NCBI GenBank assembly: GCA_025765595.1
Contig: JAIVFH010000122.1
Span: forward strand, 28,191-92,190
DNA: 64,000 nt
Reading direction: 5' to 3'
Origin: Obelidium mucronatum
Lineage: Eukaryota > Chytridiomycota > Chytridiomycetes > Chytridiales > Chytriomycetaceae
Positions 23,993 through 45,797 of this stretch are shown piece after piece (the stretch's first letter is position 1; each line of letters begins with the position of its first letter). Made by a program: the position numbers and the translations under genes. Under the pieces are notes generated by a model. It saw nothing but the letters and a program-made list of their open reading frames with translations. It made no database searches and was not told the DNA's origin.

Positions 23993-24206
23993 CTACATGA
24001 AACCAAGTCGTCTTTGCGCAAATGAGTATTTCTTGATTCGCAGCAGAGTGTACCACTCTACAGCTTTGGAATAGTCCTGGGTAACTCCTTTGCCTTTCTC
24101 GTACATGTCACCCAAGTTGAATTGTCCACCTGCATCTCCTTCAATGGCAGCAAGAGTGAAAATTCAGACGCTTTCCTGTCGTTTTGGGCAACTCCTTGGA
24201 CATTCT
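23993..24206 (-). pseudogene. Cut-off 3' end of the Sel1-repeat kinase gene (relic)
   Basis: Read on the minus strand from 24206, the sequence encodes VQGVAQNDRKASEF, then after one missing T in a T run TLAAIEGDAGGQFNLGDMY and EKGKGVTQDYSKAVEWYTLL, then a diverged stretch ending RRLGFM and a stop (23993-23995). This is Sel1-repeat sequence in the same order and register as the kinase gene whose coding now stops at 43320. Its first codon joins the truncated end of that gene in frame (see the island entry). The one-base deletion and weakened tail show decay after separation. It has no start codon of its own. Confidence 0.85.
24201..24206. repeat. Left copy of 6-bp target-site duplication (CATTCT)
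   Basis: CATTCT at 24201-24206 is repeated at 43331-43336. Each copy sits exactly where Sel1-coding sequence meets non-Sel1 sequence. Confidence 0.8.
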
Positions 24207-24369
24207 TTGTAGTAAAATAAGCCTTTACTTTCAGGTTAAGTGTGTGAGATTGTCCTTTTTCTTCTTGTTATCTTCTAATGTGATTTCTGTCCTATATATA
24301 CCAATTTTCCTTACAGCTGATTTCAAAAAGAATGGCACATCCTCTTTTTTTTCGATTTTTCCAAGTACA

Positions 24370-24640
24370 CCGCTAATTCAAAATCCGGATGAATGCCGGC
24401 CGGAAGCAGCATCTGGCGGATTGCGCCACGAATGCCGGCCGCAATCTGCCCCTGACAGAATACGGGCGCCGTTTCCGTCTGGATTCCGGATGACAAGTTC
24501 GCCCGGCATACGCCACGGAAATGTCGTCAGAAATCTGCACGACGTTCCGAAAGTCTTGCTCCAGTGCAAAACCACAGAATCCTGCGGAGGTTCAGCCGCA
24601 TCTCAGACGTTGCGCCGGTAGTATTTCAGCAGGGCTGAGG
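24370..24640. other. GC-rich block of unknown nature within the island
   Basis: This stretch is much richer in G+C than its AT-rich surroundings, with repeated CCGG/GCCGGC words (ATGCCGGCCG occurs twice, at 24391-24400 and 24431-24440). It has open frames on both strands but no recognisable protein. A second block of similar style lies at 26050-26315. It may be part of a degraded element. Confidence 0.4.
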
Positions 24641-25103
24641 GCGGCACAATCAGCCAGTTGGATGATTAATACACCAAATAATAAAACCAAATGAAGTATA
24701 TAAAATCAAACAAAGAAATAATAAAATTGATTTTATTATCTTTAACGCCTTCAACAAAAAGAAAAATGCAAGAAAAACCTCAAAACAATGCAGAAACCAT
24801 GCAGAAACCAAGCTTTGCCGTCAGTAGGCTCGTATCATCCAGTACTACAAGCCAATCGGCAACATGGACATGGAGGTATGGGCCATTGTTGTTTTTCGAT
24901 TTAACAAACTGATGTCCGAACTAATCTTTCTCTGGCAGGTTGCCCACCAAGTCCACCCCTTTAGAGCAGCCCCTCAGCGTAAATTGTCGGCTGTCATTGC
25001 GAAGGAACCAGCCTGGAGTGCGGTTTTTTTTGACGCAGGGGCCACCATTATCCAACCAGCCGCACAAGAAAGGTATGCTCATATCATTTGCTTTTCGTTT
25101 TGG

Positions 25104-25255
25104 TTTCTGCCCATAGGGGCATTTGCATTTTCCTCTTTCGCGTTCTGCTCATAGGAGCGTTCGCATTTTCTTGTTTTGCGTTCTGCTCTTACGAGCGTTC
25201 GTATTTCCCTGTGCCACGCACGTTCTGCTCATAGGAGCGTTCATTTGTTTCCATC
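25104..25255. repeat. Four tandem units of about 38 bp with an internal palindrome
   Basis: Units begin at 25104, 25142, 25180 and 25222 with (G/T)TTCTGC(T/C)C(A/T)T. Periods are 38, 38 and 42 bp. Each contains CTCATAGGAG or a variant, a 4-bp stem with compensating changes in some units (GCCCATAGGGGC, GCTCTTACGAGC). Confidence 0.75.
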
Positions 25256-26049
25256 TCTCTACACCTTTTCCAACCATGTTACATTCAATAAATAGTTTAT
25301 TAATCTCACTTAAATTGATGCTTTATTTGAGTAAATACTTATTTATTTATTTATTCAAGATCACGCCATTTTTCAATTGCGTCATTTGGAAAATTATAAG
25401 TGGAAGCCAGAAACTAAAACATAAGCAAAATCACCCTCCACAACCGAGCACCAGTGGGTCGTCACACTATTTCTTAATTAAGAGTATTAACGACAAGTCT
25501 TTGCCGTTCTAGGGGTGTATCCAAGGATTTTTTTTGAATTCTCTATGTGTTATCCTGGTTTGTACCTTCTATCAAAAAACTCGAAGCTCACAATCTCTGC
25601 CTTCTAGACCAAGTATGGCAAGAACAGCAACAGTAAATGGCCAACAGTATCAACTGCTACTGCTGAATCATTGACTCCCGCGATCTTAGATGGTGAGTAC
25701 TTCGGTTTTTATTTCTTTATGACACTAAAGATCCAGTGTCCTAGGGATCAAACCAGACTTGAAGGCCAGCCAGTGCTATTCACTGCAATTTGGACGCCTT
25801 TGAGGGCAGTATATGTTCGCCCTGCGAGAATGAAGTCATCTCTTTTTGGCTGCAGTCTCGAGAAGTGTTAGAGGCATTAAGCCTGGACCTGCAGAGAAGT
25901 TGAGGATACACTGTCCATTGCTGTCAATGCTGGCTGCGTTGGAATTTCTGCTTGGATCAGCCGCAACAAATCTAAGTAGAAGGGGTAGTTGGATGGGAAG
26001 ATGCAAGATAGTCCAATAAATAATTATATACTGTTTTGATTTTAAATCT

Positions 26050-26315
26050 AATTCTGTGCGGTGGATGTGTAGTGCTGGCGATTGGGCTTGGATTTATTGC
26101 AGTTGCCGAAGGCACTTCCGTGAGTATTCTTCCGAAAACGCCGCCCAATTTCTGCCAGAATACCCGAGGGGTTCCAGCAGTCTGGCCGGCTGTTTTTCCG
26201 TCTGGTGGTGTGGACGACCGGAAGCGGTGGGATTGGTCTTCCGGCAATCGCCACGGTATTGCCGGTCGATTTCTGATCGCATGCCAGACGTCTGCCGGTT
26301 GCCCCGTATATTGAG
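26050..26315. other. Second GC-rich block, upstream of the DD34E transposase
   Basis: Rich in TTCCG, CCGGC and GCCAG words, flanked by AT-rich sequence, and ends about 65 bp before the transposase start. It resembles the block at 24370-24640 in composition and in TCTGCC...AGAATAC words. It may be part of the mariner-type element or a separate insertion. Confidence 0.35.
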
Positions 26316-26380
26316 GTGTATTGCATTTGGTAGCTTTGTATAACTTTTGGTAGAGATCCCATAGCACAAGCCTGGAGGCT

Positions 26381-27581: not shown

Positions 27582-27717
27582 TAAACTCTTCTTACTCTCC
27601 TATCTTACTCTCCTAATTGTTTGACCATTCAAATTGAATAAGTTCTGATTTCTATTACAGCACAAAATGTTCAAAAAAAAAAAGATAAAGTCTAAGCAAC
27701 AAAACAACTTTGAAAGT

Positions 27718-29078
27718 TTAGGAGAGGTCAAAAACTCTTCTTTGGACTTGAGTTCCTTCAATCTCCAAATGATCCTGGTCAAAATGTGCCCACAATGCTC
27801 CTTCAAAGGAAACACCTATACTTCCCAACTTCCAAATAATTCGAACATCTAGCTTTTCGGCAACAGCTGACAGGAATTCTGGAGCTTCCATCTCAAGAAT
27901 TGAACAGATTGAGCAGGTCTGGCTGATAGCATGTTGTGAAACAAGTTTGAAAAACCGACCCGAAGACCTTACAACTGTGATTGTGACTGTTCGAACATTG
28001 CTTCCAGTTGATGCTTGGGAAAGGGTGCCCTTCACAGAAGGGCGGGCTGATGGGGGTTCTAAAGTTGACAAGCCAGTACCCAACCTTTCCTGTTGAAGAA
28101 GATATGCGTTTTTCATATCAAAGCATGCATAGTTGGGAGGTGTGTTAAGAGTAAGATGTGGATCATTTCCAGCTGTCTGAACAACATTCAGTTTGTTGAC
28201 AGGTTTGCTCTGAGAAACTCACCAAGATTCTAGCCCAAGGACGCAAATGCTTATCTTCAGATAGAAGCAAATGGTAACCATTTCTTCTGAGGCAACCATT
28301 TGAGTGGTCGCCATGGTTGTCCTTGACTTGACAAGTACCCACATACAACTCCTTCAGTTGACCAAGAGAGTCATTTCGAGTATGTGGATGCCCTGCCAGT
28401 TTTTCCAAAATGTCGCGACGGTGGGTAGCTGGTTGAGCTGAAGCACTACTACTGGAACCTATAATTGTAATTGACGTAAGAAGACCTGAAGATGACCAGA
28501 TAATTCACCTTTTGACAGGAAGACAACAAAACTAAAGCTGTTTGGAAATTGAAACACTCCTTTCACTGCCTTTACCTTGACTCGAAGCACAAAGGCCAGA
28601 CCGTCATCTTCAATTTCTTGTTTGGCTGCTGCCTTCGTGTCTCTGAAGGCAATCTTGAATAAAAGATTCGACCAAGCTGGTTTAGAATCGGTAACCAATC
28701 TAATAAAGGATGCTTTGTTCAACGACGTCAGACGTGTGAGCTTTGTGAACATGCTGATTGATTGTATATCTTTCCCAGTGGCTTCATCAACAGCAACAAC
28801 AGGAACCACTGTAAACCAGCAAATGTTATTATGCTTACTTTTCGTGGCAGTACATCAGTAATAAACTCACTGATTTCGCAGCTTGCTGCCTTTTCGAAAC
28901 CCTCGTCATCCAAATTGATTTTTTTGCCGAATCTTGGCTCATTCTCGTTTGAAATTTGCCGCTTTAGATGACGATGATCTGATTGTTCCGATGGACAAGA
29001 TGAATCAAAACAAAAAGTGGGTGCAGATGATGGTCTTTGGGATACTAACCTTGATGTAGTTGAAGCAGCCAATCCCAT
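27718..29078 (-). CDS. Unidentified four-exon gene in the island
   Basis: Exons run leftward: about 29078-28871, 28810-28509, 28458-28216 and 28169-27718, joined by GT...AG introns that keep one frame. The N-terminus is Ser-rich and disordered (MGLAASTTSRLVSQRPSSAP). The middle has VAVDEATGKDIQSISMFTKL. A conserved-looking core reads RRDILEKLAGHPHTRNDSLG, HSNGCLRRNGYHLLLSEDKH and RPWARIL. The C-terminal part is folded-looking (QTCSICSILEMEAPEFLSAV then IWKLGSIGVSFEGALWAHFD). I do not recognise the family. An intact splice pattern within a mobile island suggests a cargo or accessory gene of the element. Cysteine pairs are too few to claim a zinc finger. Confidence 0.6.
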
Positions 29079-30141
29079 ATGTTCTCTCTGAGCGGTACAG
29101 TATTTCGAAACAGCCCGGATATTGCAATCAGCTGCAATCAGTAGGGGCTACTTCCAAATCGTTAGAGCTTGTCAGCAAAAAGTCCTCCAGTGGCCTGCCA
29201 TTCAATGCAATCTTGCCAACCAACCCAAAGCCTTACTCTACTGTAACTTTCTAATTTCGATGTAGATGTACACTAAATCGCTCTCACAGGTGGCATGTGC
29301 TTGAGGGAAGGATATAGGGTCGTTAGCTTTGAAACCCCCCTCCTGAAAAACATGAAAAAACTCAGTTTTTATTTTCGTTTTTATAAGTTTTGTTGGCAAG
29401 ATTTCGAACAAGAAATCGGAAAAAATCGGTCAACTTTGAAACCCCCTATTGAAAGGCCCATATAAAAAATCGAAAGGCAGGCCTGATAAAAAGTGATGAA
29501 CAACTTGGTCGGCGCACCACCCATAAACACCCCGAAACAGCCGCCCCACCTTCCGCGGCACGCCCAGAGAGATACAGAATATTCCATTTATATTCAAATA
29601 AATTAATTACTTGATACATTGCTTTGACATACTCTGGACGGTCAGCCACGACGGTCCTACACCAAACTTGAAAAAATAATCAAATCAAAATAATCGACAA
29701 ATTCGGAATTACATTTATTTGCAACCTATTTAATTGATTGTAACTGGCTGTAATTGGATGTAATTGGGTGGATGGAGAAATAAATAGTTGAGTATTTTTG
29801 ATTCCTTTTTTTATTCAACTCCCCAAAATCCACACCAAGACTGTTGGATGATTGTGCTCTTCATTGAGCTGTATCCGGCTAGTTGGTGTTTGGGGACTTT
29901 ATTTATAGTTTATTTGAAACTTGCGTTTCTGTCTTGTTTGTTCGACATGTCATTCAAAGCCGCCGCTGCGAAAGTTTCCCTCGAGTCCGAGCGATAAGGC
30001 AAGGTACGAGCCAGCAAGGCGAGACCTGCGACACGCTATTCGCGCGAAGCGCGTTAGAAAATTTTGAGTTTTTGACAGGACTGTGTAGCCTAAAACAACG
30101 TTTACGAACCAATACTGAACGAACATATTAGAAAAGATTTA
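29079..30141. other. Island spacer without a supported gene
   Basis: Short unsupported frames only. Two notable details: GTCAACTTTGAAACCCCC near 29429 resembles GTTAGCTTTGAAACCCCC near 29321, and a perfect hairpin CGCGC-GAA-GCGCG lies at about 30043-30055, in a GC-rich patch (29990-30055). Confidence 0.4.
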
Positions 30142-30624
30142 TTATAGTTTATGCCACAATAAGCTCGGAACAATCTGGATTTTTGCTTCCATGCCGTCAA
30201 TCGTTAGTTTCTCAAACACCGCACCATTTTGGCATTCGACAAAGGCAACTCCGTCAATCACCAATACAGTCGAGCCCTCTTCCTGAAACTCATTCTCACA
30301 GTCTAAATCTTTCCTCCACTTTTTGGACACATTTGTAAGGGAGTGAACAATTCAATCAGCGGCTTTCCCACCCTTGGGAATGTAAGAATAGTGAGCTTGC
30401 AAATAATCGTTGACTGTTGTTCCTTTGAATCCCTCCTCCAAGATGCATTTTTCAAAGAGTTTTTGCAACCGCGCCCTCACAAACACATTCGCCTTGGGGC
30501 TTTGCTTCAGTTTTGCCAGAAACAATTTCCGCTTTAACTTCACAGCATTGACGCTGATTTTGTTTCCATATATTTGAATCAAATTGTTCCAGTTTTTGAT
30601 TGGATCGTTGAAGGTTTGGAGCAT
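30142..30624 (-). CDS. Two small ORFs, possibly one degraded or spliced gene
   Basis: The upstream frame (30352-30624, 90 codons) is Lys/Asn-rich and helical (NDPIKNWNNLIQIYGNKISV, then KLFLAKLKQ). The downstream frame (30142-30330, 62 codons) reads MSKKWRKDLDCENEFQEEGS then VLVIDGVAFVECQNGAVFEK. They share a reading frame separated by one stop (30352-30354), but no clean intron could be placed over the stop. Neither product is recognised. They follow the zinc-finger-like gene in the same direction. Confidence 0.3.
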
Positions 30625-30863
30625 TAAAAATTCATAAGTTGTCTGGCAAACAACACTGGTTATTGGTCTTGCTTAATGAATAAGAATAAATCCACCTTCC
30701 AGACGCTATAAGACGCCTTAACGAACAAGGGAGGAGGGGCGTTATTCCCCAATTTGAGTGGTGCTCGTTTTAAACCCCGAAGTACCAATGGAACAGCACC
30801 TACTGGAATAGGAATTATTGATTTTGCAACATGATCTACAAAGAATATTGGTTCAGCATTTGA

Positions 30864-31985
30864 TTACATCAGGTTACTAAAAGAGCACAAACCATAACCT
30901 CTCCACAACACGTGGCTTCTCATTTGTGCAGCAGTAGGCTTGCACCACCCATCAATAAGGTCCCTGACACTTTCAAACTCGCATGCTGCAGTCGGCTCAA
31001 TAAGCGTGTCCAGTTGGATAGAGTATTGGTTCGTTGCAAAAGCAAATTTTCGAATGCTTGAACCTAAATGCTTAAAAACTGGATTGACAGTAGGCTCCTC
31101 ATTCGATGGTTCGTTTGCCAGTTCTAGACTGTGCAGAATTTGAATTTCATGGTTACGCAATGGTTGGTTTGACAGTTCTACAGGATTGACGTTCAAGAGA
31201 TCAGGAAGCATTGTTGACAGCTTTCGGAAGTCACAGGCTCTCGAAAGAATCCAAAACTCATCTTCTGGATCAAGTTCATCCAAACTCAATTGAAAGGGCA
31301 ATTTGCCATCGCAGAGAAACTCTCCAATCTGCTTTTTGATTAATCTTTGGTGATGAAACTTGAATAAAGCTGGACAAACCGCTTGATCTTCGGCTGCCAC
31401 AGTTTCCTGATTTCGAAAATCATCAATAGAAGTCTCCTTTACCCCATAAGACATGATATCTGAATGAAGTTTGCAGTATTCTTTTGGGTTATTCTTTTGT
31501 TTCTTTGCAGCTGGCTTTGTGACAGTGTCCTAGTGTCCTGGCCTACTTCCGCAGGATCCACAACGTCTTCGCCTAACTGAATAGTAGTAGTATTTGCTGT
31601 ATTTGTTGGTGGTTTCTGTCGCCGTCCCTTCCTCTTCTTTGCATTTTCACACCCAACAGGTCCTATGTATGCAATTAAAACAGGGTTCCACCTTTCTGCC
31701 AAATTTTTTGCTGAAGGGAACTGATGACACGGGTGAAAATGGTTGTTTTGAGGTGTACCATTTTCAACAAGAAAATGGGCAACTTCTCCTTTTCCTTCTA
31801 CATTGCAATTCTGCTCCAAAATGTACGAAAGAGCAAATTGATCTTCAGAGTGGTCAGCAATGCTTCCATCGGCACATACATGCCGAGACATTGATGGCAG
31901 AACTTCGGAGGTCCAAGAATAAAGCCCAAATTCCGCATCAAATAAAAACTCGGTTTTAAAGAACTCTCCCAGAGTAAAAACCATC
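30864..31985 (-). pseudogene. 3' part of zinc-finger-like gene split by a copia element
   Basis: From 31985 leftward the frame opens VFTLGEFFKTEFLFDAEFG and continues through HPCHQFPSAKNLAERWNPVL and a basic patch KKRKGRRQKPP. A probable short intron near 31510-31550 (exact borders unsure; a one-base shift is the alternative) leads to NNPKEYCKLHSDIMSYG and VKETSIDDFRNQ, ending at 30864. Removal of the copia element (31986-36766) and one target duplicate joins this frame directly to the 36772-37244 segment. The product is not recognised. The gene is disrupted unless the element is somehow spliced out. Confidence 0.65.
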
Positions 31986-32048
31986 CGTTAACTGTTATTG
32001 TTGTGTGGGTGGAAAATAAAGACTTTAATTCTTCCCAATAATCTAAAG
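31986..32048 (+). repeat. Left terminal repeat of the copia element
   Basis: 63 bp identical to 36704-36766. It begins CGTTAACTGTTATTG and ends AATAATCTAAAG. It is followed by CGTTATCAGCACC, a weak candidate for a primer-binding site. The same words are translated in both host-gene halves if read through, but these are repeat-derived. Confidence 0.85.
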
Positions 32049-32077
32049 CGTTATCAGCACCAATCCAAAACAAAACT

Positions 32078-35000
32078 ATGCTCGCCGCGTATGGCCCACC
32101 AAAAGAGTCTAACAAACTCACCAAGTCGAACTACACTACCTACTTTCGCAAGTGGTATCAAGAAATCAAGAAGGTCCTGGGTAATATCGGTCTACCTGCT
32201 AGCTCTGCTCTCTACCAAGTCACCGCCACCCCAGACACTGTCCCAGTTAACTCTCTCGTGATGTTCATGACCGTCCCAGTCACACACGTCTCCAAAGCGA
32301 AAGTTTACAGCTTCGAACCACTGGTTGAAGGATCTGTTGTCTGAACTGTCAAAACACCAACTTTCGACCAGGAAATGCGATTCAACGGAATTGTCTCCAA
32401 CTTCGAAACCGCTAAGAGTCGGGTATGGGGAGTTATACAAGACTATACTGATGAAACTATCTTCACTGTCTTCAAGTCTTCGGCGGGAATTCAGGAAAAC
32501 ATCGTCACTGGCCTCAATGCCCTTCAAAGCCACTGTCTCGTGTCGAATCAGGCAAACATCAATGCCGCAAAGAATACCCTCCAGTCATTACGTCTATCTC
32601 CAAACAAACACCCTCTCTCCCTCCTGCAATCAATACAAACACAGGTACTCATCCTCGCCGACCTCGGATACCCCGATTCGAATAATCCAGCTTTATGTGC
32701 GGAATTCGAAGCAAATAACATCGAAAATTTCTTTATTGGACTTACGGATGATGAACTCGCAAGATCGATGAAGGCACTTATATTCTCCAAAGCTAAAAAG
32801 TCCCCAATGGACTTCATGGAAGTACTGGCTATTGTATCAGAAGACGAACTTGGATCAAGAGGGCGAATTGTGCACAAGGAATGGTTTGGTACAGGTGTAA
32901 GCAAATCGTTTGTCGCTACTGCAGATATGTCATTGGAATCACAAGTTAATATGATAGTTACAAAAGCCTTGGCAGCCATGAGTACCACCGACAACAGACC
33001 AAAGACCAAAGATCCTCTCAAATTGTTTGTCCTCGGTTTCCCACATGGTACTACGTCAGAATCGCTTCAGAGACACTTCCAAGGCTCCAAACGTGTCGAC
33101 TTGGCAAAGAGTGCGAATGGAAGCCCAATAGCCTTTGTGTTGTTTGATACTCATATTGCAACTACCAACGGATTGAATACTAGTGTGGATTTTGGGCAGT
33201 CTAAATTGGTTATTCACCGTGCTTTCAATAAAGCTATTCAATCCTACAAGATTTCCGTTTCTACACCTGTAATTAATCGGACTATTGAGCCGATTGCTTA
33301 TCTCGACTCAGGTTCCCAAAAACACTTGACCTACTCAGCCGCTCTACTGAATAACACATCAAAATGCAAACCCTCATCAGTACAAGGAATTGTTTCAGGC
33401 GCATTGTTACATGGAAGTGGTATCCAAGGGGACGTTAAAATCAAGGAGTCCAATCTCACCCTGAATGGGGTTGAACATATTCCGAACTCTACTGAAAATT
33501 TAGTCTCAATATGGAAACTATTAGTCGAGAAACTCAATGTCTATTTTGACCATGAGACAATGACAGCATACATTGGAACTATGAAGAATGGAGAGTTCAC
33601 TATAACGGCTCGTGCAAAAGGTGTCGATGGACTATTTCACCTACTTCTTGATGCACCTGGTACCCAAATCGATTTGGATTCGGATCCAAAAATAAAAGCT
33701 ATGCTCGGTTTGACGTTCCCAAGTACTACTCTCAGAACATGGCACGAAAGATTTATGCAGGCTGGAATCGACCAAATATTGAAAACTGTCCCGGCCGTAA
33801 ACGGTCTTGACTTTGCAGGTTCGAAAGAAAAAGAGTTCTTCTGCGAGACGTGTGTACTCGCAAAAATGCCAAGATTGCCATACAACAAATCCGGTTGGAC
33901 GCCAAGCAAAATATTGGATACCATTATTATTGATGTATTCTTCCCAGAGAGAGGCAATCCTTCTCTCGACGGCCACACGTGTATGCTGGGTGTCATGGTT
34001 CCATCTATTAATCTTAAACTATGTTACGGCCTCTTCAAACACAAAGCCACAGATGCTGTCGAGGCGCTACGCATTGCTATTGACTATTTGGAATCACACT
34101 CAAATGAAAAAGTTCAGAATATTCGGATGGACCCCTCAGGCGAAGCCGAAAGCAATTTGATGCGTGAAACTGGCCTCAAACTGGCAAAAACAATACAGAT
34201 TACAATGACCGAGGCCCACAATCAAGACGGACACCTCAATGGATACTTCAAAGTCATGATGGAACGCGTTCGGGCTAATATTATACAAACGGGTTCTCCA
34301 ATGAACTTCTGGCTTAACAACGCTTATTAGCACACATATGTTGACAATAGGACAATACACGGTACCGAAACAAAAACGCCCATTGAATTACTCACTGGAA
34401 AAAAACCACTGGTTAAACACTGGAGAACATTGAACTGTATCGCATATCCGCGAATTCTTCCAAAACACGTCAAAATTACTGAGGCCAATATTGAAAAACC
34501 TGGTGTCTACTGGAAAACTGGACCTCGCGCCAGACGTGCTCATTTTATTGGCTATGGAAATTACGATGGCCACCCGATCCAAAGAATGGGCTGGAAATTC
34601 TTACTGGATGTTTCGGATCCCTCCACGGTTATCTATTCGCGTGACGCATACTTTGTCGAAAATGCATTCAATCTGGAGCAACTTCAAGGAAAACAACATG
34701 AGAATATCAAGGCCATTCGCTGGGCCAACATCTACGAAGATCATGCTCTAGAAGATTTGATTGCCATGCCTCTGGATTGTCCGATACAGGTACTCGAAGA
34801 CGCCGCCTCCGATACAAGTGAAATTCTTCCGATTCAGGTACCGATCTCTAGACCATCCACTCCAACAAACTCCATTTCAGATGATGAATTTTTTACTCCA
34901 GCTTCTAATACTTCAACTGCTACAGCTACTACTCCTACTACAATTACAGCCGCTACAGAAAACACAGAAAGTCCACCACCAACTCCTACACCTTTTACTC

Positions 35001-36709
35001 GAAGATCAACGCGTAATACCACTCAACAACAACACTACGACGCTGCTACAGGAAAACATTATTCCGCTTTCCTCTCTAGAGACGCAAAAATTTCAGTGAG
35101 GGATGCGCTACAAATGCAAATCTGGAGAGATGCCTTCAACAAACACCACAAGAAACTTGATGATGCATCTGCATATAAGTTTGTGGTCAAGTCTGCAGCT
35201 ACAACTCCAATCATCCCGCTTTTCTATGGACTTACCGAAAAACTAAACGAAGACTCTGGACTATTCGAACCGTATGTCCGTGCTATCGCTGACGGTAGTT
35301 CCCAGAATCTCGCAGACGTTGGACAAGTCTATGTAACAACTCCAGACATCGAATCGAACAAGATTTTCTCCATTCATGTTGTTCAAAGAGGTATGAATAC
35401 ACGAAAGGTGGATGTTAACGGGGCATTTCTACAAACCCCAAACAACCCAGACCGACCTGTTTTTACCTACATCCCGGATGGTTTCCCGACCCCCGCAGAA
35501 GTATTGCCTGCAACACACTGTCTCCAATGGCTAAAAGTTATCAACGGTCAACGGGATGGTTCTTTCCTGTTTGCAAACCATCGCGACAGTCTATTTAGGG
35601 AATATGGTTTCGAACAATGCCCCTCAAGCCCTTCTATTTGGGTGAAACAACTTACAAATATTGCACACGAAAAAATTCTCTTCATGCAGTGGTATGCTGA
35701 CGACGGTGAAATTGCGGACAACCCCGGTTGCAGAGTAGAGGCTGATGCATTTCTGGACTGGTTACACAAACGCTTACCGATCACTGTAAAGGACAAAGTC
35801 GGTACTATTATTGGATGCAGAAAAACGTACTCAAATGGAGTATTCGACATGGATCAAGAAGACTATATTGTGGATTCATGCCTACCATTCCTTGCCAACA
35901 AAGCTATCAAGAACAAAACGCCATGGAACACCTCCACCGACTTAAAAGAATTTGACAACCCCACGGTTGAAAGCCCGGCTGCTATGGACAGAAAACAGTA
36001 TCAAGTTGTGTTTGGAACCTTGCTCACTTTACGCAAAACTCGAGTCGATATTCTGTTTGCGTTGAGCAAATTGGGACAACATGTCAAAAATCCTCAACCT
36101 ATTCACTGGAAAGCTTTACAACATCTCTTGGGATACTTGAATCGAACAAAAAGCAAGGTACAACGCTTCAAAAAGTCAGCGGATGGAGTGGTCAAACTAG
36201 TTGGTTACACAGACTCCGACTTTGCTGCAGACAATAATACTCGTAAATCGCGAACTGGAATCGTTGCTACGCTCGCGGATGGAACAGTCTCTGCCTCTTC
36301 GAAATTACAGAAAACAGTAGCTGATTCCTCGGTAGCGGCCGAAACTACTGCTGCAGTTGCAGGATCCAACGTATTTTTGTACTTGAACAACATCTTGAAA
36401 TGGCTCGGTTACAATTACTCTACCCCTATCGACCATTTCTGTGACAACCTGCAATCAGTAACAAATGTCATTGAAGGTTCTGGAAGACACAAAACCCGTC
36501 ACCTGGACTTACAGTACATGGTTCTTAAGGATCGCCATACATCCGAACAGATAAAATTTCAATGGTGCGGCTCGGAATCAAATAAATCGGACGTTATGAC
36601 AAAGCCTCTCCGTGCAGTAAAACATGAACGCGCTATGTTGGAACTTGGATTGGTGGACAGGGAATCGACAGAAACACACTCTCTATCCCTCTTTGCTTAT
36701 GTCCGTTAA
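32078..36709 (+). pseudogene. Gag-Pol frame of the copia element, with two in-frame stops
   Basis: One uninterrupted phase runs from the ATG at 32078 to the stop at 36707-36709, broken only by TGA (32342-32344) in the Gag part and TAG (34328-34330) in the integrase part. Order: Gag-like N-terminus; protease with IAYLDSGSQKHLT; integrase with zinc-binding CETC and a degenerate core; reverse transcriptase with RKVDVNGAFLQTP and the catalytic box QWYADDGE; RNase H with GYTDSDFAADNNTRKSRTG. Protease-integrase-RT order is copia-type. The integrase position usually held by the third catalytic acid appears to be Asn (DGHLNGYF where family members have NG..ER). Either stop readthrough is used or the copy is dead. 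Confidence 0.8.
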
Positions 36710-36766
36710 CTGTTATTGTTGTGTGGGTGGAAAATAAAGACTTTAATTCTTCCCAATAATCTAAAG
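36704..36766 (+). repeat. Right terminal repeat of the copia element
   Basis: 63 bp identical to 31986-32048, with no mismatches. This identity points to recent insertion. The polyprotein stop codon overlaps its first 6 bp. Confidence 0.85.
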
Positions 36767-36771
36767 CCATC

Positions 36772-37244
36772 CATCGAACTTTGGTGTCTAGTGAGCCTTT
36801 TCGGACTTCACTTGGAACTGTCCAATCAGATAAAGCCCACATAGCAGCAAATTGTCGGTCTTGGAACTTTCCCAGCAGAACATTAGCATACTCTGCAGGA
36901 CAGTCTGTGGAGCTTTTTCTTTTCACTGTTCTCACCCTCAGCACCACATTGTTACGATGAAGGCCCCCCCACTCCGCCCCCCATTTGCACTGCAAACACA
37001 CAACAGAGCTTTTATCCTCCTCTGCGCATATAGATTCATGACAATATGCTTTGCACTTGGAGCATACTGCTAGCAGATCAGATGTCGACGGACAATGCGC
37101 TTGATAGCATCGCGGGGCTGCTTCGCCAGTGGATGATGTTGGAGCTGATGTTGCACTTCTGTTCGAATTTTCAGCTGCTGTGTTTGTATTTTGCGCCAAC
37201 GGCTGGATCGAGGTAGCATGGACATTGAAAGTCGTTGAGAGCAT
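36772..37244 (-). pseudogene. 5' part of zinc-finger-like gene, broken by the copia element
   Basis: Start at 37242-37244 (MLSTTFNVHATSIQP). After a Ser/Thr/Asn-rich leader comes a cysteine cluster with spacing C-x4-C-x9-C-x2-C-x3-CH-x3-C-x9-C-x2-C (CYQAHC, CSKCKAYCHESIC, CLQC), resembling a PHD-type or related zinc-binding fold. It continues through WALSDWTVPSEVRKGSLDTK to VRWM at the insertion point. Its start is only 62 bp from the divergent tyrosine recombinase start, so the two probably belong to one element. The DNA-level break is at the CCATC duplication. Confidence 0.65.
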
Positions 37245-37306
37245 TTTGGCGGGACAATTTTCTCTTCCAAACACAACTGAAACAGCATCTAAAACAAACC
37301 ATCACT
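37245..37306. promoter_or_regulatory. 62-bp divergent promoter, zinc-finger-like gene and recombinase
   Basis: Only 62 bp separate the two divergent start codons. This tight spacing suggests a shared promoter and a common origin for the pair. No core element is identified. Confidence 0.45.
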
Positions 37307-38961
37307 ATGATTGGAGAACTCGCTGCTGCCGCAACTGAAATGGCCGGAAGTGATATGGAGCAAGCAGTAAAGCAGCTTGCTCCTGACATTGATGAAGCTG
37401 GTCTCAACCTCGCGCCCCTTACAAACTCACTTCTTTCGAAGTTGATGTCAGTGATACAGCAAATGGCAAAGGATTCCGCCACAGACTTGTCTATAGAAAC
37501 GTCAGCCTCCATCGAACTTGAACAGGACTTCAAGGAAGTCCAGATTCACATGGAAAAGACACTTGGGCATGCCCAAGCAGAGAAGACAGGAAAAGGATAC
37601 GCTTCTTACGCTCAGAAATTCACTGACTATGTCAAGAATCCAAAAATCTTTGAATCCCCTGATTCAAACACACCTAATCTCATAGCCTCATACATATTCC
37701 TTAACTGCGACTTTGTTGATACAGCCGATTCTTCAGGAAAGTCTCTTGAATGCAAAGGGCTGTCTGTAAGTTCATCAAGCTACTCTTGGGTTGTATGGTG
37801 ATGATTTTTTTTGAAGATGGGATCGGCACTAATGATCAGGTCGGCTCTCAGCCATGCTTTCAAACAAAATGGATTTGATGGAACTTGGAACAAATCTACC
37901 TGTACAGGAAATCCAGCTATTGCCCCTGTAGTCTCGACATATATGCTCAGTTTAAAAAAGCGCAAGGTTTCCCACTTGCTGTTTTTATGAAGCCACATTT
38001 ATTTACATTTTATGTTTATCAGATCCGTGCTGGTGATGTTTCATCTTCTGTTAAAGCTCTAACATCTCATGATCTTCGAGATATGGCAAGACATATGTTC
38101 TCAAATGAATCTGTGGATCAAAGAAAACCAACTTGGCGTGGAAATACCAGGGAAGGACGACCCCAGTTTGTTCAGCCATTCTTCCGTATGATTCATGTAA
38201 GTAATATTATCGATGTTCATGATATCACTTAAAATAATTCAGCTCTCATTTTTGCTTGGGTTTTTGTGCTTATTGCGATCTGATGAAGTTCTCGGTGTTG
38301 AAGTGAATCACATTCTCTACCATCCCTCCAATAGAATGCTAGAAGTTCGCTTGCCTTGGAGAAAGACTCATCAGTATGGTGGTGAGCAATTTTGTTGGTT
38401 TCATGCTTTTGGACTCTGACTGCTGTTTGGAAATTAAGCCCTTTTATCTCTACCCAAACACCAAGTACCCGTGGATGTGTCCAGTGACAGCTTATCTGAT
38501 TTGGAAAGCTTATCTTCATCGAAATGACATCGCCGAATCGAAGTATCTCTTTCGCTCTTGGAAATCGAGTGCAGCTGGAATGAAGATAACTACAAATCAA
38601 CTGGTGAATGTATTTGCTTATTGATTTTGTCCCTAATTATTCTTTTGTGCAGACTGCTGACAAGTTCATTGATGTGTTGCACTATCTTCTTGCAGACACT
38701 GGCCGCCGCTGGTACAAGTATGGGACCCACAGCTTCCGCCGCGGAGGGTGCCAGTACTTACATAATGAGAGGCGGTGGAATTATAATCAAATTTGCGATT
38801 GGGGTGGTTGGTCTTTGGCATTTGATAACTTTACTATTGTACGGTACCTTCATGGTGTATTTGATGACTCACCTTATCCACGCATTCATCTCATGGATTC
38901 TAATTATACTGAGCACCAAAAGTGTGGCTACTGTAACCGATCTTGCGCATGTTCGCGTTAA
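37307..38961 (+). CDS. Crypton-like tyrosine recombinase
   Basis: DNA strand-exchange enzyme of the tyrosine recombinase superfamily. Six exons with consistent GT...AG introns: 37307-37765, 37816-37967, then segments starting IRAGDVSSSVKALTSHDLRD, LSFLLGFLCLLRSDEVLGVE, PFYLYPNTKYPWMCPVTAYL and TADKFIDVLHYLLAD. Catalytic features: Arg in LLRSDEVL (box A); His-x-x-Arg in GTHSFRRGG (38727-38753); Trp in DWGGWS; and candidate nucleophile Tyr in FTIVRYLHG. The N-terminal helical region is the DNA-binding arm domain. The C-terminus ends in a Cys-rich tail (CGYCNRSCACSR). No stop or frameshift is seen. Starship captains are also tyrosine recombinases, but the central location here does not match that arrangement. 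The Crypton assignment is by motif style. Confidence 0.8.
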
Positions 38962-39018
38962 AAAATAGAAAAAAATAAACTAACAAAACAAAAGAGAATA
39001 AAAGAGAATAAATTGATC

Positions 39019-39957
39019 TCAAAGAGGGTTTCCTGCTTGATCCAATGTTGCTCGAATCCAGCGAAACCAACCAACACCAAGCAAAATCGAATCGCAAATA
39101 TCATGGATTTCGAAATTTTCAATGGCGCCACCAATAAGAAATCCAGAGGTACGAAATTCCGCGATTCTTTCCAGCGTGTTCTGCTTTTTAAGGAGGCGAA
39201 TAGCTGCAGCTCTCGACTGAGCATTGCTCCTTGCAGATAAATGTTCCTTCTGCGCATCAGTTGCTTCCAGCAAGAACAACCGTGATATCTTCAAGGGATT
39301 TATTGAGCAGCTTATAGAATCCAAGCCAAGGATTTCTCGTTTTGCAGCAAAAGCCATTATTGCGAAAGACTCGCAGTTGTAGGTTTTGAGAATACTATCC
39401 GAAAGCCCAAACCCTCCTCGAATAGATTGCTCCTCTGCAAGCTCTACTCTTTGAAGGTTGGCGTACTGGTTCGGAAGCTGGCTCCATGCATGCGTGATCA
39501 TACTGTAGACTTGTTGGGCAAGTGCTGCCTTGGACTTTCTGTTGTCAGCATCAAAGTCGTACACCCCCGAAGCCAGTACTGTAATCGGAAACGTTTCACC
39601 AAAAGGAAGTCTTGGAGGAGGAAGCAGGAGCAAACTCCAGGCGGCAGAATCGCAGCCGTTGTCGATGGAAAGGCACACCACCTCTGCCAAGTCTTTTCGA
39701 AGAGCGGCATCCACTTGTCCACGGGTTTCCAAGAGACTTTCAAGCATTTTCGCCTTGTTGATTCCGGCATAATTGATTCCTTGAGGTTGGCAGCTTCGCG
39801 CAAGTCCTTCTGTCGGAAAGGTTTCATCGTTCCAAATGGCACTTGTAGGAATAGACGCACGCGCGGGAGCTGGATGATCAAGGACATCTTCATCATCTGA
39901 ATCGGCAGTGAGATCAATGACAGGTACGTCGCCCGTGAGGTCAATTACAGCTTGCAT
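39019..39957 (-). CDS. Island protein with two N-terminal SUMO-interaction motifs
   Basis: A single exon of 312 codons. The first 25 residues contain two hydrophobic cores, AVIDLTGD and PVIDLTADSDDEDVLD. The second is followed by an acidic run, the classic SUMO-interaction motif layout. The rest is mostly helical and not recognised: NYAGINKAKMLESLLETRGQ, SLLLLPPPRLPFGETFPITV, and a basic Ala/Arg helix (SARSNAQSRAAAIRLLKK), ending WIRATLDQAGNPL. It converges with the tyrosine recombinase, their stops being 57 bp apart. A role in docking on SUMO-modified host chromatin proteins is an inference. Confidence 0.7.
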   Translation of the reverse strand: MQAVIDLTGDVPVIDLTADSDDEDVLDHPAPARASIPTSAIWNDETFPTEGLARSCQPQGINYAGINKAKMLESLLETRGQVDAALRKDLAEVVCLSIDNGCDSAAWSLLLLPPPRLPFGETFPITVLASGVYDFDADNRKSKAALAQQVYSMITHAWSQLPNQYANLQRVELAEEQSIRGGFGLSDSILKTYNCESFAIMAFAAKREILGLDSISCSINPLKISRLFLLEATDAQKEHLSARSNAQSRAAAIRLLKKQNTLERIAEFRTSGFLIGGAIENFEIHDICDSILLGVGWFRWIRATLDQAGNPL

Positions 39958-40298
39958 GATTGGCTTTTGTGCTCAGTCGAATTGGAGGAGGCCCCCCTGT
40001 CTTTATAGACTACCAACGGCACCTGAAACGCTCCGAATTGACTTGAAACTGAAATCGAAAACTCGGGGTTTGTGCAGTTGGAACGAGGTTGACACGTTCA
40101 GTGGCGATCTTGTGAAAAATACAAACCAGGCCTTTGGGACCATCTAAAGAGCGCAAATAGGGTGAAATAATTTATTTATTGAATTAGAAAGGACTCACGG
40201 GGCGGTGCAGGGTGGTGGTGGGGAGTGCCAAAGTAGTTGGTTGGTGAACGACTTTTTTTTTGTCCCCTGGAGAGCACGCGAATATCAGTTTCTTTATT
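39958..40298. other. Spacer between island genes
   Basis: About 340 bp upstream of the SIM protein and downstream of the DDE nuclease. It holds a run of T near 40252 and no supported frame. Confidence 0.4.
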
Positions 40299-41282
40299 TT
40301 ATTTTAAATAATATTTCTTTATAATTATTTTTGACAAGTGTTGATAAAGTTTATTATTCTGATTCACACAAGCCGTCCACTTCACTTGAGTAATCTGACA
40401 AACAGCTCCAAAGATTTGATGGTGCTCCGATTGGCTTCCACGATACATTTTACGCAAGATTTGGAAATCCTTCAACCGTCCATTCATAGACTCATGCCTT
40501 GACTGCATCAATGACAAGTTTCGGTTATACTTCTTGACAGCAACAGTGGCAGTCCGACCTTTGATTGGTATTAGGATGCGATCAGGCTCTCCCAAGTACC
40601 CACAATCAGCAGCCACCTTTTCTCCTTGACGAAGCTTTGGCAAAAGGTTTGTCCGAACCATTTTAATATCAGGCCATTCACCGCATGGTACGCCACCAGA
40701 CACATGGACAAATTTAGAGACACCAATTGCACTAGCAACTTGATAGCGAAGGCCAGCATGCTTGAACTTATGACTGAAAAGCCCTTTGTTGAATGGTCGG
40801 GTCTCCTGAATAAGAACGTCAATGCCGTCAACGTAGCAAGATGGAACCATGCTGTTCCAACCTTCAAATCTATCCTCAAAATGAATCTAAGAAATATTCT
40901 TTCAAATACAGATACACCCAAACATCACAGCAAATAAAATAAAAGTTACCTCATTCATGCCGTTGAAGATGCGAATCATTCGCCATACTTTGTCCCTCCA
41001 GTTTGTCGGACTTGTTTTAAAGGTTGACGATGATGACAGCTCTGTGTTGTATTCCTTGAAGAAATTCAGACACCAGAGGAAGTGGACCTTAGTTAGCTTG
41101 TCAGCCAAGACTGGCTCTGCGACGATGAGCCAAAGGTCTACAGCTGATTCAATAGAAAGGCCAAACTTAGCCACAAACCGCTGTTTCCAAACAAGCTTCT
41201 TGCGGTAGAAGGAATCTCCTGACAGATTGAGTAGCGGGGCAGCGCGAGAAACCATGAGGGTGAGTTGCTCGTTCCAGTCCAT
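40299..41282 (-). CDS. PIF/Harbinger-like DDE nuclease (transposase)
   Basis: Two exons: 41282-40951 and about 40887-40299, joined by an intron with GTAACT donor and TCTTAG acceptor. The first part is helical (WNEQLTLMVSRAAPLLNLSG, KKLVWKQRFVAKFGLS). The second has the DDE_4-type pattern: first Asp in CYVDGIDVLIQE, a beta-rich middle (HAGLRYQVASAIGVSKFVHV) with SGGVPCGEWPDI, second Asp in AADCGYLGEPDRILIP, and Glu in SRHESMNGRLKDF. This matches the layout of PIF/Harbinger (HARBI1-like) nucleases. The final segment is basic (KIIIKKYYLK). It is divergent from the 41890-43005 gene, as in two-gene Harbinger elements. The frame is intact. Confidence 0.7.
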
Positions 41283-41889
41283 ATGAAAAGAGTTGTTTGT
41301 TTTTTTGGAAGAAGTTTTTTGGTAAGTGATTGCTCAGCATTTGTTAAGTCTGTAAATGAGTTAGGTCTGTAAATGAGTTTTCAGAGGCTTTCAGTGTCAC
41401 GTGCCTGTCGGCATGACTTACAAGGCATGCGGGTGCTTCACGACAAATTTACAAGACGATTTGGAGACACTGAAACGCAATTTTGAGACACCGAAACACG
41501 ATTCTGAGCCACCCAAAGTCGAATCTTAGCCACCCAGTTTGCAAATTTATGCAAAACATGCGATTCCATTGAATTCAGCCTGCAAATCACCCAAACTCAT
41601 CAAAATACTGAAGGTGCGCTTTTCAGCCAATGTTTTTGCAACTAACATTTTATTTTTTTATTTTTTTTTCACTCGATTCTGAAGAAAAAAACCACACAGT
41701 TGTGAACATCCGAATGGTGGAGGGGATTCTTTTCGGCTACAACAAATAGGTAAGGAATTGCACTTTCATTTTAATGGAAGACACTCATTGATAATTCATT
41801 TCGAATGCCATGCAAATTTTCATGGGCTTGTTGAAACAAGCGTATAAAACTTGAAGAAAAAAAAAAAACAAACATGCTCAAGTTCAGAA
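41283..41889. promoter_or_regulatory. Divergent spacer with imperfect 21-22-bp repeats
   Basis: 607 bp between the DDE nuclease and the acidic-linker gene. At 41461-41536 there are about three and a half degraded units of GAGACAC(T/C)GAAACxCxATT-type sequence. At 41347-41378 GTCTGTAAATGAGTT is duplicated. Such repeats could be binding sites for an element-encoded protein, but this is not shown. Confidence 0.45.
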
Positions 41890-43005
41890 ATGGCTGGCCA
41901 GAATCTTGGTGCTACCCACTGGACTGTCGAAGACTCCAAGCGCTTGCTACCAATTGTCAAGAAGAACCCTGGCATCAAAGGAGCAGGAGTTAAAGCCATG
42001 GACGGCTGGTTTGGGAAGTTCAGTGCCTCTTGCTTGAACTCGAAGTTGAAAGTCTGTCGAACTGCTCTTCAAAAGAATGCTGGTAAGTTCTTAATTGTTG
42101 TGTAAGTTAGGAGTTAGTTTCTTCCTGACATCTATTCTATTTTAAGATTGGGAGCCAGGGACCGAGAAGCCACCACCTGACATTGCTGGACACCTGAGAC
42201 AACAAGACGACGAATCTAATGACGACAACTACGAAGATGACTCAGATGTTGAAAACTTCGGATCTTCTCTGCTTCAGGAAGTCTACGGTGCTGCCGCCAA
42301 GCCCCCACCTCCAAAGAAGCGTCACCAGACTGCCCCAACTGTTCCAATCCCAGCCAGTCCAAAGTTTAGTGGCGTCGATCCATTTCTGATTCAACGCGTT
42401 ATGGGTGGAAAGAACTGGAAGAAGTACTGTGCTCAAGAAATCCATGAGTACAATGCAAAGACTGCTCTGCCTACTGTGACGGCACCACCACCTGCAACTC
42501 AAGTGCAATCATTGGTCTATTCGAAAGCAGGAGTCAAAGCAGCAAAGAACTTTCACTCCAACCTTCGTCTTCATGAGGTCGTTCGGTTCTATGATGCTGG
42601 ATCAAAGCTGTGGAAGGTGATCGTGTTTTTGCGACTGATTCACGATACTACTTTCGTAATTTCAGTCTCACCTGATGGCAGAAAGCTGCTGTACAACATC
42701 ACTGTCCAACATTCAGAGTCTTCTTTCAAGTCAACCCACGTGACAAGGGTGCTCAATTGGCTTCAACTCAAGCTATCATCGGGTATTTTGGAAATGATCC
42801 TGGAGCTGAAGAGTTTGTCTACAAAGTGAATCTGCCTGAAGCAGTTGACTCGAATGAGCTGGAATCTTGTTTTATTCACACCCTTGTGAAGACGCGGGAT
42901 GTTCGCAATGGTCATGAAGTAATGGTGAAGGAGAATGTAGCAGTTGCTCAAACTTACTTGGTATCAGGACAGAAGTCGGAGCAGCGTCGTAGTACCCGCT
43001 CTTGA
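41890..43005 (+). CDS. Possible Myb/SANT-like partner protein of the DDE nuclease
   Basis: Start at 41890 (MAGQNLGATHWTVEDSKRLL); exons 41890-42081, about 42147-42616, and 42682-43005. The N-terminal 60 residues (HWTVEDSKRLLPIVKKNP then GWFGKF) resemble a helical DNA-binding fold of the Myb/SANT or trihelix kind, though only weakly. An acidic linker (DDESNDDNYEDDSDVENF) follows. The third exon was chosen because acceptor CAG at 42679-42681 gives the only frame that stays open through PRDKGAQLASTQAIIGYFGN and LPEAVDSNELESCFIHTLVK, ending SEQRRSTRS. Its position divergent from the nuclease suggests a two-gene transposition module. The function is inferred from context. Confidence 0.55.
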
Positions 43006-43330
43006 TTTAATTTTAATAAACGTTCATTGCTCATTTCTTTATTTTAATGAAAATCGTGTGCTCTCCTGCAAAAAAGTAGTTCATCCTCCTGAAGAATTGA
43101 AATCAGCTGTAATGAAATTTTCTGGTATTAGTCCCTGGGCCAACAATGATAAGAGTTACATCTTACTAATGTACGCACTTCTTTGTCTCACTTCACTCTA
43201 GGACCATCTTCACCCGTTTCAAGTAGCAATCAAGCTCCCTCTCGAACCAGTATCAATGTTGAGATTTACTTATCATTTATTACTAATTATCTTTGTAATT
43301 GTCTTATAATAAAATACTACTATTTTACAA
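43006..43330. other. Right end of the island
   Basis: AT-rich sequence leading to the terminus ATACTACTATTTTACAA at 43330. A small open frame (43090-43201) has no support. The terminal bases supply the last codons and the TAG stop (minus strand) to the truncated kinase gene. Confidence 0.5.
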
Positions 43331-45601
43331 CATTCTTGTACTTGAGCCCCAAGTTATTTTGAGCTGTTGCGTTTCCTTGGTTGGCAGCAAGAGTGTACCA
43401 CTCCACAGCTTTCGAATAGTTGTGGATAACTCCTTTGCCTGTGTCGTACATGAAACCCAAGTTGCATTGTCCATCTGCATGTCCTTGATTGGCAGCAAGA
43501 GTGTACAATTCAACCGCTTTTCTATAGTTCTGGACAACTCCTTGCCCATGCTCGTACTTGAGCCCCAAGTTATTTTGAGCTGTTGCGTTTCCTTGGTTGG
43601 CAGCCAGAGTGTACCACTCCACAGCTTTCGAATAGTCCTGGGTAACTCCTTTGCCGTTGGCGTACATGAAACCCAAGTTGCATTGTCCATCTGCAAGTCC
43701 TTGATTGGCAGCAAGAGTGTACAATTCAACCGCTTTTCTGTAGTTTTGGACAACTCCTTGGCCATACTGGTGCCTGAGACCCAAGTTACTTTGCGCTATT
43801 GCGTATCCTTGGTTGGCAGCAAGAGTGAACCACTCTACAGCTTTGGAATAGTCCTGGGTAACTCCTTTGCCTTCCATGTAGATTAAACCCAAGTTGCATT
43901 GTCCAACTGGATGTCCTTGATTGGCAGCAAGAGTATAAAATTCAAAGGCTTTCTTGTAGTTTTGGACAACTCCTTGGCCATTCTTGTACCTGTGACCCAA
44001 GTTAATTTGCGCTACTGGGTGTCCTTGGTTGGCAGCAAGAGTGTACCACTCCACAGCTTTCGAATAGTTGTGGATAACTCCTTTGCCTGTGTCGTACATG
44101 AAACCCAAGTTGCATTGTCCATCTGCAAGTCCTTGATTGGCAGCAAGAGTGTACAATTCAACCGCTTTTCTGTAGTTTTGGACAACTCCTTGGCCCTGCT
44201 GGTACATGAACCCCAAGTTACTTTGCGCACTTGCATGCGCTTGGTCGGAAGCCAGAGTGTACCACTCCACAGCTTTCGAATAGTCCTGGGTAACTCCTTT
44301 GCCTGTCTCATACATGAAACCCAAGCTACATTGTCCACCTGCATGCCCTTGATTTGCAGCAAGAGTGAAAAATTCAGCCGCTTTCCTGTAGTTCTGGGCA
44401 ACTCCTTGCCCGTGCAGGTACATGAACCCCAAATTGGCTTGGGCATCAGCGTTCCCTTGACTGGCCGATTTTGACAGTAACTCAATGGCTTTGGAATAAT
44501 TTTGAGGAACTCCAGCACCATCTCTATACATCAGTCCCAACTTGGCTAACTCAGACGCATCGTCCGCATTTTTGGCGGGTGTGGAGGACTCGAAAAGAGT
44601 CGTATCAGCCTTCTCCTTGGAAAAAGCAGGGGCAGCGACCTTGGATGATATCGACAGCGATGCGAAAGATATCAGTTCGAGTTTCGGTATATCCGAGTGT
44701 TGCTCAATAATCTTGACAATCTCTTCAAAGGACGGTCGTTTGGTTGGGTCTTGGTCCCAGCAAGCTTGAATCAACGACCACTCCCAAGAATTCTCAGGGA
44801 TTTGGTCTGGCTGGCTTTTCGGACGTTCACCGTCTCTAACCCATAGTAGAATATTTTCTGGATGGATAGCGTCGTCAAATGGTTGAACTTCTGAAAGAAT
44901 CTCGTAGATGGTCATGGCAAAGGAGAAGACATCGTAAGCCGTGGTGGCCTTGTAGTCTCGGCCAAAGGATTCAGGCGGAGAGTATCGTATTGTTCCGTGC
45001 ACTTGGCGAGAGAAGGTATGGGATGCATTTTGACAACGAGAAAGGCCAAAGTCCGTAATCTTAGCAATTCCATCATAACCTGCAACATCGGGAGAAACAG
45101 TGTCAAAAATGGAGCAACCAACCTCCTCCCCCTTCAAGATCACCTACCAATCAGCACATTACGCGGATTCAAGTCAGCGTGAATAACCGGGTTCTTTTGC
45201 GCGTGGAGATATTTGAACGCCTGGGCAATCTGTAAGATCCAACGCATCTTGACGTCCCTAGACACTGGCTCCTCCTCTTTCCAGCAATGGAGACGACTGA
45301 CGAGACTTGTTTCGGCACGTTCAATGATCAACGTTGGATTGCCACGTTCATCGACAGACACTCCGTAGAGCGGAGTGATATTGGGATGCTTTAGGGTGTG
45401 CCAGATGGCAGCTTCGCTCTGGGCCATCTTTACGGCTTTGGGATCAACAAGTCCCGTGATGGTCTTGATTGCGACAGGGTTGGTTCCGTAGTAGCCGGAG
45501 TACACCTCCCCGAAGCCTCCTCGCCCAAGCGGCTTATCCTTGTCGATAGCGACGTCGGCGGCTGGAATAAACCACGCGTTCCCTGCGTACGCATTGGCCA
45601 C
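43320..45601 (-). CDS. TKL-like protein kinase with Sel1 repeats, C-terminus cut by the island
   Basis: The first exon (45601 to about 45150) holds the kinase N-lobe: Gly loop LGRGGFGEVYSG, Lys in NPVAIKTI, EAAIWHTLKHPNI, and catalytic loop HADLNPRNVL. A short intron leads to KITDFGLSRC, GTIRYSPPESFG and VFSFAMTIYEIL. After the kinase domain a linker leads into Sel1 repeats of 36 residues: eleven complete and part of a twelfth. They alternate between two types (for example GQGVVQNYRKAVELYTLAAN and GKGVTQDYSKAVEWYTLAAN), giving a 72-residue (216-bp) higher-order unit. The HRD Arg is Ala (HAD), while the catalytic Asp, Lys and DFG remain. The last residues (VVK, stop) are encoded by the target duplicate and transposon end; the original continuation is the relic at 23993-24206. 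Confidence 0.88.
43331..43336. repeat. Right copy of 6-bp target-site duplication (CATTCT)
   Basis: Matches 24201-24206. It lies inside the Sel1 codons for Lys-Asn of the partial twelfth repeat. Confidence 0.8.
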
Positions 45602-45797
45602 TATGAATACAATTGTGGAGAGGGAAGGAGTGAGAAACGCGCGAAGTGGGGATCAACAAGAGACACTCACTCTTGAATCACTTTTTATAAATGCGAAAAA
45701 AAGGGAACAGTAGACAATAAACATAATTGCGCACCACTGACTAGAGTCGTTGAACAAAACAATGGTGTCAATTTTTTTAGTTGTGCAGCGTTGCACT

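Follow-up and report, generated by a model that had tools for sequence, protein, structure and literature searches.

A 19-kb block within a kinase-Sel1 gene of the chytrid Obelidium mucronatum is very probably a nest of transposable elements, with a pairing of recombinase and probable resolvase that may be new

Results

A 19-kb block in a kinase-Sel1 gene

The window analysed here is a stretch of 64,000 nucleotides (C122:28191-92190; C followed by a number denotes a contig) from the draft assembly of Obelidium mucronatum, which comprises 48.3 Mb in 694 contigs. Within it, a block of 19.1 kb interrupts the Sel1 part of a kinase gene. This block is very probably a nest of independent transposable elements stacked at one spot. 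Its outer layers are all of known kinds, a nest as such is nothing unusual, and there is no sign of the 19 kb ever having moved as one. A tyrosine recombinase gene in the interior is paired with a gene for a probable Holliday-junction resolvase, and this pair is the sole part that may be new. The gene and the outermost layer, a solo long terminal repeat (LTR), comprise the following features:

43323..45652, minus strand: interrupted kinase-Sel1 gene (Pfam kinase match and 11 Sel1 stretches, from the translation)
24203..24207: target duplication TTCTT, left copy
43333..43337: target duplication TTCTT, right copy
24208..24311, plus strand: left part of the solo LTR, starting with TG (match to LTRs on C37, C43 and C69)
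43112..43332, plus strand: right part of the solo LTR, ending with CA (same LTR matches)

A preliminary description had proposed one large insertion, perhaps of a new transposon family, bounded by a 6-bp duplication, CATTCT. Both CATTCT copies are present at 24201-24206 and 43331-43336, with TTGTAGTAAAATA inside the left end and TATTTTACAA at the right end, and a mobile insertion into the Sel1 part of the kinase gene was indeed precise and left a target duplication behind. However, the duplication is the 5-bp sequence TTCTT. The LTR family starts with TGTTGTAAAATACG and ends with TATTTTACAACA, and the window LTR reads TGTAGTAAAATAA from 24208 and TATTTTACAACA to 43332 with TTCTT on either side, so that the family ends place the boundaries at 24208 and 43332. 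The right CATTCT is made up of the final CA of the LTR and TTCT, the left one of a chance CA of the gene before TTCT. An LTR ending in CA next to a flank that carries CA by chance is thus a trap, in which a 5-bp duplication looks like one of 6 bp. As TTCTT is frequent (347 occurrences in the window, both strands counted), it is the LTR ends that carry the weight and not the TTCTT. A chance 6-bp match was ruled out, since the ends agree with those of full LTR elements.

Full elements flanked by this LTR are found on C37 (6,817 bp), C43 (6,829 bp) and C69 (6,911 bp), and all three lie between 5-bp duplications (GGTAT, TGATG and CTAGA, respectively). The C37 element, which was the one scanned, has a long open reading frame (ORF) with RVT_2 (2.5e-51) and SH3_retrovirus matches, which assigns the family to the copia type. 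Over 325 aligned sites, the C37 LTR agrees with the window LTR at 306, and the alignment contains 36 gap columns. The family has a further solo LTR, between GAAAC, on C578 and C125. The window LTR resembles Ty1/copia solo LTRs in its TG...CA ends, its 5-bp duplication and its full relatives with RVT_2, but it differs in being broken up by other elements. A further LTR nest was observed on C655 (L016 243-6180) and C165 (L017), where about 5.7 kb interrupt a solo LTR of the family whose flank is that of the C578 and C125 copies.

Fusing the gene flanks with a single TTCTT yields LGLKYKNVQGVAQNDRKASEF, which preserves both the reading frame and the Sel1 register; an undisturbed site, GGCCATTCTTGTACC, is present at 43976 in another repeat of the same gene. 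The fused frame is kept for about 15 residues and then lost, with Sel1 residues continuing in a different frame. According to this, the left Sel1 relic is decayed. The kinase-Sel1 frame now enters the LTR, gains VVK and reaches a stop.

A Tc1/mariner-like element within the solo LTR

The solo LTR is itself cut at a TA by a sequence that starts with CAGCTGATTTCA and finishes with TGAAATCAGCTG, with TA on either side. The features of this layer and of the sequences adjoining it are:

24312..24313: TA duplication, left (the uninterrupted LTR on C37 reads CCTTGATGAAATT)
43110..43111: TA duplication, right
24314..24367, plus strand: left terminal repeat of the Tc1/mariner-like element (98% to C19)
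24368..26317: unclassified 1.95-kb (1,950-bp) insert between two GTA, not in C40 or C19
26318..29027, plus strand: remaining mariner-like part with the transposase and part of a second gene on the minus strand (98.3% to C19 over 2,712 bp)
26354-27578, plus strand: DDE_3 transposase (Pfam DDE_3, 5.2e-14, in 27234-27578)
29028..29451: truncated miniature inverted-repeat transposable element (MITE); in the fuller copies on C334, C126 and C49 the inverted repeat measures about 30 bp
43097..43109, plus strand: final 13 bp of the right terminal repeat of the mariner

Complete mariner-like elements were found on C19 (3,684 bp) and, co-linear with it, on C41 (3,508 bp), both between TAs and both without the recombinase block described below. 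Inverted terminal repeats and a TA duplication are present in the window, C19 and C41 elements; the terminal repeat matches at 162 of 165 sites in the C19 element and at 48 of 50 sites in that of C41, and the window right end keeps 13 bp of it. The genome contains 13 copies of the pattern TACAGCTGATTTCA and none of its reversed form; apart from the window locus and C40, two pairs of these copies bound complete elements, those of C19 and C41. The DDE_3 transposase, the TA duplication and the inverted terminal repeats are as in Tc1/mariner elements, from which this element differs by its opposite-strand second gene of unassigned function and, in the window copy, by the absence of its right part. 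That the recombinase block was an ancestral portion of a larger mariner is disfavoured, as the C19 and C41 elements are complete without it. Close to the left end of the 1.95-kb insert are GAATGCCGGCCG repeats, and tandem repeats of 38 bp lie in its middle.

Later insertions and a second copy of the locus

Two further transposable elements were delimited in the interior:

40270..43065, minus strand: PIF/Harbinger element (DDE_Tnp_4, 4e-11, at 40302-40886; copies and ends)
40267-40269 and 43066-43068: CTG duplications of the PIF/Harbinger element
31987..36767, plus strand: copia-like LTR retrotransposon with 66-bp terminal direct repeats and the duplication CATCC, not in C40

Three Harbinger copies seen at both ends elsewhere have their own ends, with CTG on C2 and CAG on C241 and C48. 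The element shares the DDE_Tnp_4 transposase and a 3-bp duplication with the PIF/Harbinger group, whose duplication is usually given as TWA, unlike the CTG or CAG seen here. With regard to the second, Myb-like protein of the group, the two ORFs scanned gave no Pfam match, and neither did 42146-42826. On C33 (L044 1649) a Harbinger-family copy begins near a TACAGCTGATTTCA end, as at the window right end, which may reflect insertion preference or chance. The copia-like element has an in-frame stop in its pol region; Pol_BBD was above the cut-off, other matches were below it, and no reverse-transcriptase match was listed.

C40 carries a second copy of the locus, with segment identities to the window of 97.3%-100%. 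The LTR, the mariner, the recombinase block, the MITE remnant and the Harbinger are common to both, whereas the copia-like element (31987-36767) and the insert at 24368-26317 are absent from C40. Thus the nest was built in steps: C40 shares the older layers but neither of the last two, and it bears a different insertion. This is a 3.48-kb sequence (L010 1952-5427) inside the Harbinger copy, between two AGGAATT; with an NDC10_II match (7.7e-27) and GCR1_C below the cut-off it is a CryptonF-like element. C40 also lacks 28306-29297, which is a deletion, since the portion up to 29029 exists in C19. C40 is probably the other allele of the locus, since an additional Sel1 array follows the same order on both contigs.

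Beyond the nest, two adjacent ORFs at 51079-55311 have fungalysin M36 peptidase matches and lie beside more kinase ORFs at 45801-48718.

The tyrosine-recombinase block and its relatives

Between the parts of the mariner-like element, 13 bp from its right end, lies a block with two convergent genes:

29452..31986, minus strand: left part of the recombinase block, most of a zinc-finger-like gene
36768..40266, plus strand: middle part, no long genome copy except C40
37229..38958, plus strand: Crypton-like tyrosine recombinase gene with several exons, read by eye
39022..39957, minus strand: 312-aa ORF, probable RuvC-type Holliday-junction resolvase
43069..43096, plus strand: right edge of the block, similar to the C27 element at its end

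The zinc-finger-like gene (29452-37301), whose zinc-finger match is weak and below the cut-off, is split by the copia-like element here and intact in C40. Apart from its copia and Harbinger parts, the block has genome matches beyond C40 of at most about 0.2 kb among the best candidates scored.

A search with the recombinase returned 104 homologs at E ≤ 0.001 among 3,335 candidates. Those with a species name were mostly from basidiomycetes, with some from ascomycetes, Rhizoclosmatium and Amoeboaphelidium. The recombinase P0002 of Rhizoclosmatium globosum has 70% identity to P0003. Alignment of 18 of the 104 with the last exon of the window gene showed little or no variation at the active-site residues R, K, H, R, W and Y. 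The last exon itself covers H, R, W and Y; the remaining R and K lie in other exons, in LLRSDE and RKTHQYGG as read by eye.

The same convergent recombinase-resolvase pair is carried by C27 in an element of about 7.05 kb, whose ends were defined by comparison with C1, C91 and C132. C1 and C91 hold 2.7-kb derivatives that retain both ends and the resolvase ORF, and a relative on C132 retains the left end and part of the resolvase, its right end being gone. Empty sites were found for the two copies tested: the fused flanks of C91 match C279 (95%) and those of C27 match C318 (92%) over the full length. TTAA flanks the C91 copy on both sides and is single in the empty site; at C27 the surroundings are A-rich and show no clear repeat. 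The C1 derivative (L040 4067-6792) is located between a tRNA-Ala (3930-4002) and a tRNA-like match (6851-6933).

Positions 43069-43098 of the window resemble the last 29 bp of the C27 element, and 2 of 15,992 window positions score as high; a first test was modest (score 47, the highest of 200 shuffles being 39). From this likeness we read 43069-43098 as the right end of the recombinase block, sitting inside the mariner terminal repeat. The C27 left end had no convincing match in 29001-30500 (score 38 against a maximum of 56 in 100 shuffles).

Profile scans gave no reverse transcriptase match in seven ORFs of the C27 element or in recombinase P0003, two ORFs of at least 110 aa being unscanned; positions 868-2176 of the C27 sequence L039 contain no ORF of at least 110 aa. 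A DIRS/Ngaro retrotransposon was rejected on these seven ORFs and P0003. GCR1_C, the CryptonF domain, had no match in the recombinases P0002 and P0003 or in the window and C40 exons scanned. Among the matches listed for P0002, P0003 and the scanned window exons there was no DUF3435, which marks the Starship captain. When viral contigs were scanned twice, with one and with two peptide patterns, no relatives of the recombinase or the resolvase turned up. The block is like Cryptons in its tyrosine recombinase and may be like them in lacking a reverse transcriptase, none having been found in the ORFs scanned, and, judging by the C91 copy, in having short direct repeats at its ends; unlike them it carries a probable Holliday-junction resolvase gene and shows no GCR1_C in the recombinase exons scanned. 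A tyrosine recombinase within a large fungal block also recalls Starships, from which the window differs in that its block is not one unit and that DUF3435 had no match among the proteins and exons scanned. According to a 2013 survey of DIRS and Ngaro retrotransposons, tyrosine-recombinase elements are undetectable in Batrachochytrium dendrobatidis and Spizellomyces punctatus (PMC3783388).

A probable RuvC-type Holliday-junction resolvase

The 312-aa protein of the window and P0001, the corresponding protein of C91, are homologous (24% identity, 4e-17). P0001 has a SAP domain (1e-6), and outside it sub-threshold RuvC matches were obtained from PDB (0.06-0.15, four of five rows), NCBIfam (0.022) and PHROGs (0.053), which in all three libraries centre on the first catalytic strand. 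Both proteins have the acidic motifs IDPG/IDNG, EEQ and HD..DS in the same order, the first two of which are spanned by the RuvC alignment. On these weak matches and motifs, 39022-39957 and P0001 are probable RuvC-type Holliday-junction resolvases.

Several results weigh against this assignment. Neither P0001 nor the window protein has a resolvase profile match above the cut-off, Pfam shows no RuvC match in P0001, and the top NCBIfam row for P0001 is rad18 (4.6e-4), over the SAP part. A joint profile of both proteins gave no RuvC, the matches being a SAP chain (0.031) and dehydrogenases. The window protein matches no resolvase family, and its best PHROG (0.0054) is without assigned function. 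The Ydc2 family (PF09159) gave no match anywhere, controls included, and is hence uninformative. Protein searches with the resolvase, which need shared 5-residue words, returned Obelidium proteins only (1 of 1,719 candidates and 2 of the best 8,000).

For the first exon, comparison of C27 with C1 or C91 gives a dN/dS of 0.12-0.13, based on 12-14 synonymous and 5-6 non-synonymous changes. The value is 0.155 for C1 against C91, with three changes only, and 0.40 for the window against C40, with seven changes, where C40 has an in-frame stop. The ORF thus appears to be under constraint in the C27 group and possibly in decay at the window locus.

Discussion

A stepwise origin of the block accounts for these layers. 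A copia-type LTR element would have entered the Sel1 part of the kinase gene with a 5-bp duplication, and recombination between the two LTRs of this full element would have left the solo LTR. A Tc1/mariner-like element jumped into a TA of this LTR, and the recombinase block may have entered the mariner terminal repeat as an independent element. A deletion would subsequently have taken the right part of the mariner, the left end of the block and the left part of the MITE. A PIF/Harbinger element went in close to the right margin of the recombinase block. For its movement each layer would have relied on its own enzyme or on that of a relative. Some points speak against this reading: the left end of the recombinase block is missing from the window, the junction 29027/29028 is accounted for by the presumed deletion only, the right edge resembles the C27 element over a short stretch of 29-30 bp, and recombinase block and mariner could have come together in either order.

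According to a rather unlikely alternative, the TA-flanked sequence 24314-43109 would have entered the LTR as one composite of mariner and tyrosine-recombinase element. Such a composite would measure about 8.8 kb after subtraction of the 1.95-kb insert, the copia element, the Harbinger and the MITE, and CAGCTGATTTCA is retained at both of its ends, each next to a TA. There is also a precedent: MarCry-1_FO of Fusarium oxysporum is a mariner-Crypton fusion with 16-bp terminal inverted repeats and TA duplications (PMC3212892), and it is the nearest published case for the middle of the block, sharing mariner ends, a TA duplication and a tyrosine recombinase inside. In contrast to that case, complete mariner copies without a recombinase exist here, on C19 and C41, and both parts occur together at one locus, represented by two contigs. 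The genome search revealed no second composite copy except C40, nor several mariner-recombinase copies moving jointly, and the right end has just 13 bp of a terminal repeat that matches closely in C19 and C41.

That the entire 19.1 kb is a single large transposon, as first proposed, is highly improbable and, within this genome, refuted. One target duplication does enclose everything and the gene frame resumes across it. Nevertheless, the outer ends are those of a solo LTR, and the inner parts have other ends and duplications of their own, two of them being absent from the C40 copy of the locus. Elsewhere in the genome the internal parts have boundaries other than the outer ends, an outcome that the preliminary description itself had given as refuting its proposal. 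The three recombination enzymes of that description are all present, each as part of a different element with boundaries of its own, and a new 19-kb family does not exist here. Equally hard to maintain is an assembly artefact in which unrelated repeats were misjoined. The block is rich in repeats and the draft consists of many contigs; however, C40 has both the outer and the older inner junctions on a separate contig with closely matching segments, and a shared error would need identical misjoining of both contigs.

With the stepwise nest as the preferred explanation, the false lead to a giant new transposon family is closed, and the block resolves into known kinds of transposon. It is conceivable, at slightly less than even chances, that the window block and the C27 element represent a family of DNA transposons using a Crypton-like tyrosine recombinase together with a SAP/RuvC-type Holliday-junction resolvase. 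In such a family the resolvase would complete or bias strand exchange at the junction made by the recombinase; short derivatives without the recombinase that keep the resolvase would be mobilised in trans. The endonuclease of the R2 non-LTR retrotransposon has reportedly been linked by one paper (PMC3636483) to Holliday junction resolvases, and would likewise be a transposon enzyme tied to them. R2, however, is a retrotransposon and is not known to have a tyrosine recombinase partner. No transposon with both enzymes was found in the open-access library searched, with the terms used; the portions of PMC5718144 and PMC13236599 considered are about classification and giant viruses.

What may be of interest is a chytrid tyrosine-recombinase element that comes with a probable junction resolvase of its own. 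Should the pairing prove real, the way in which tyrosine-recombinase elements complete strand exchange would become testable.

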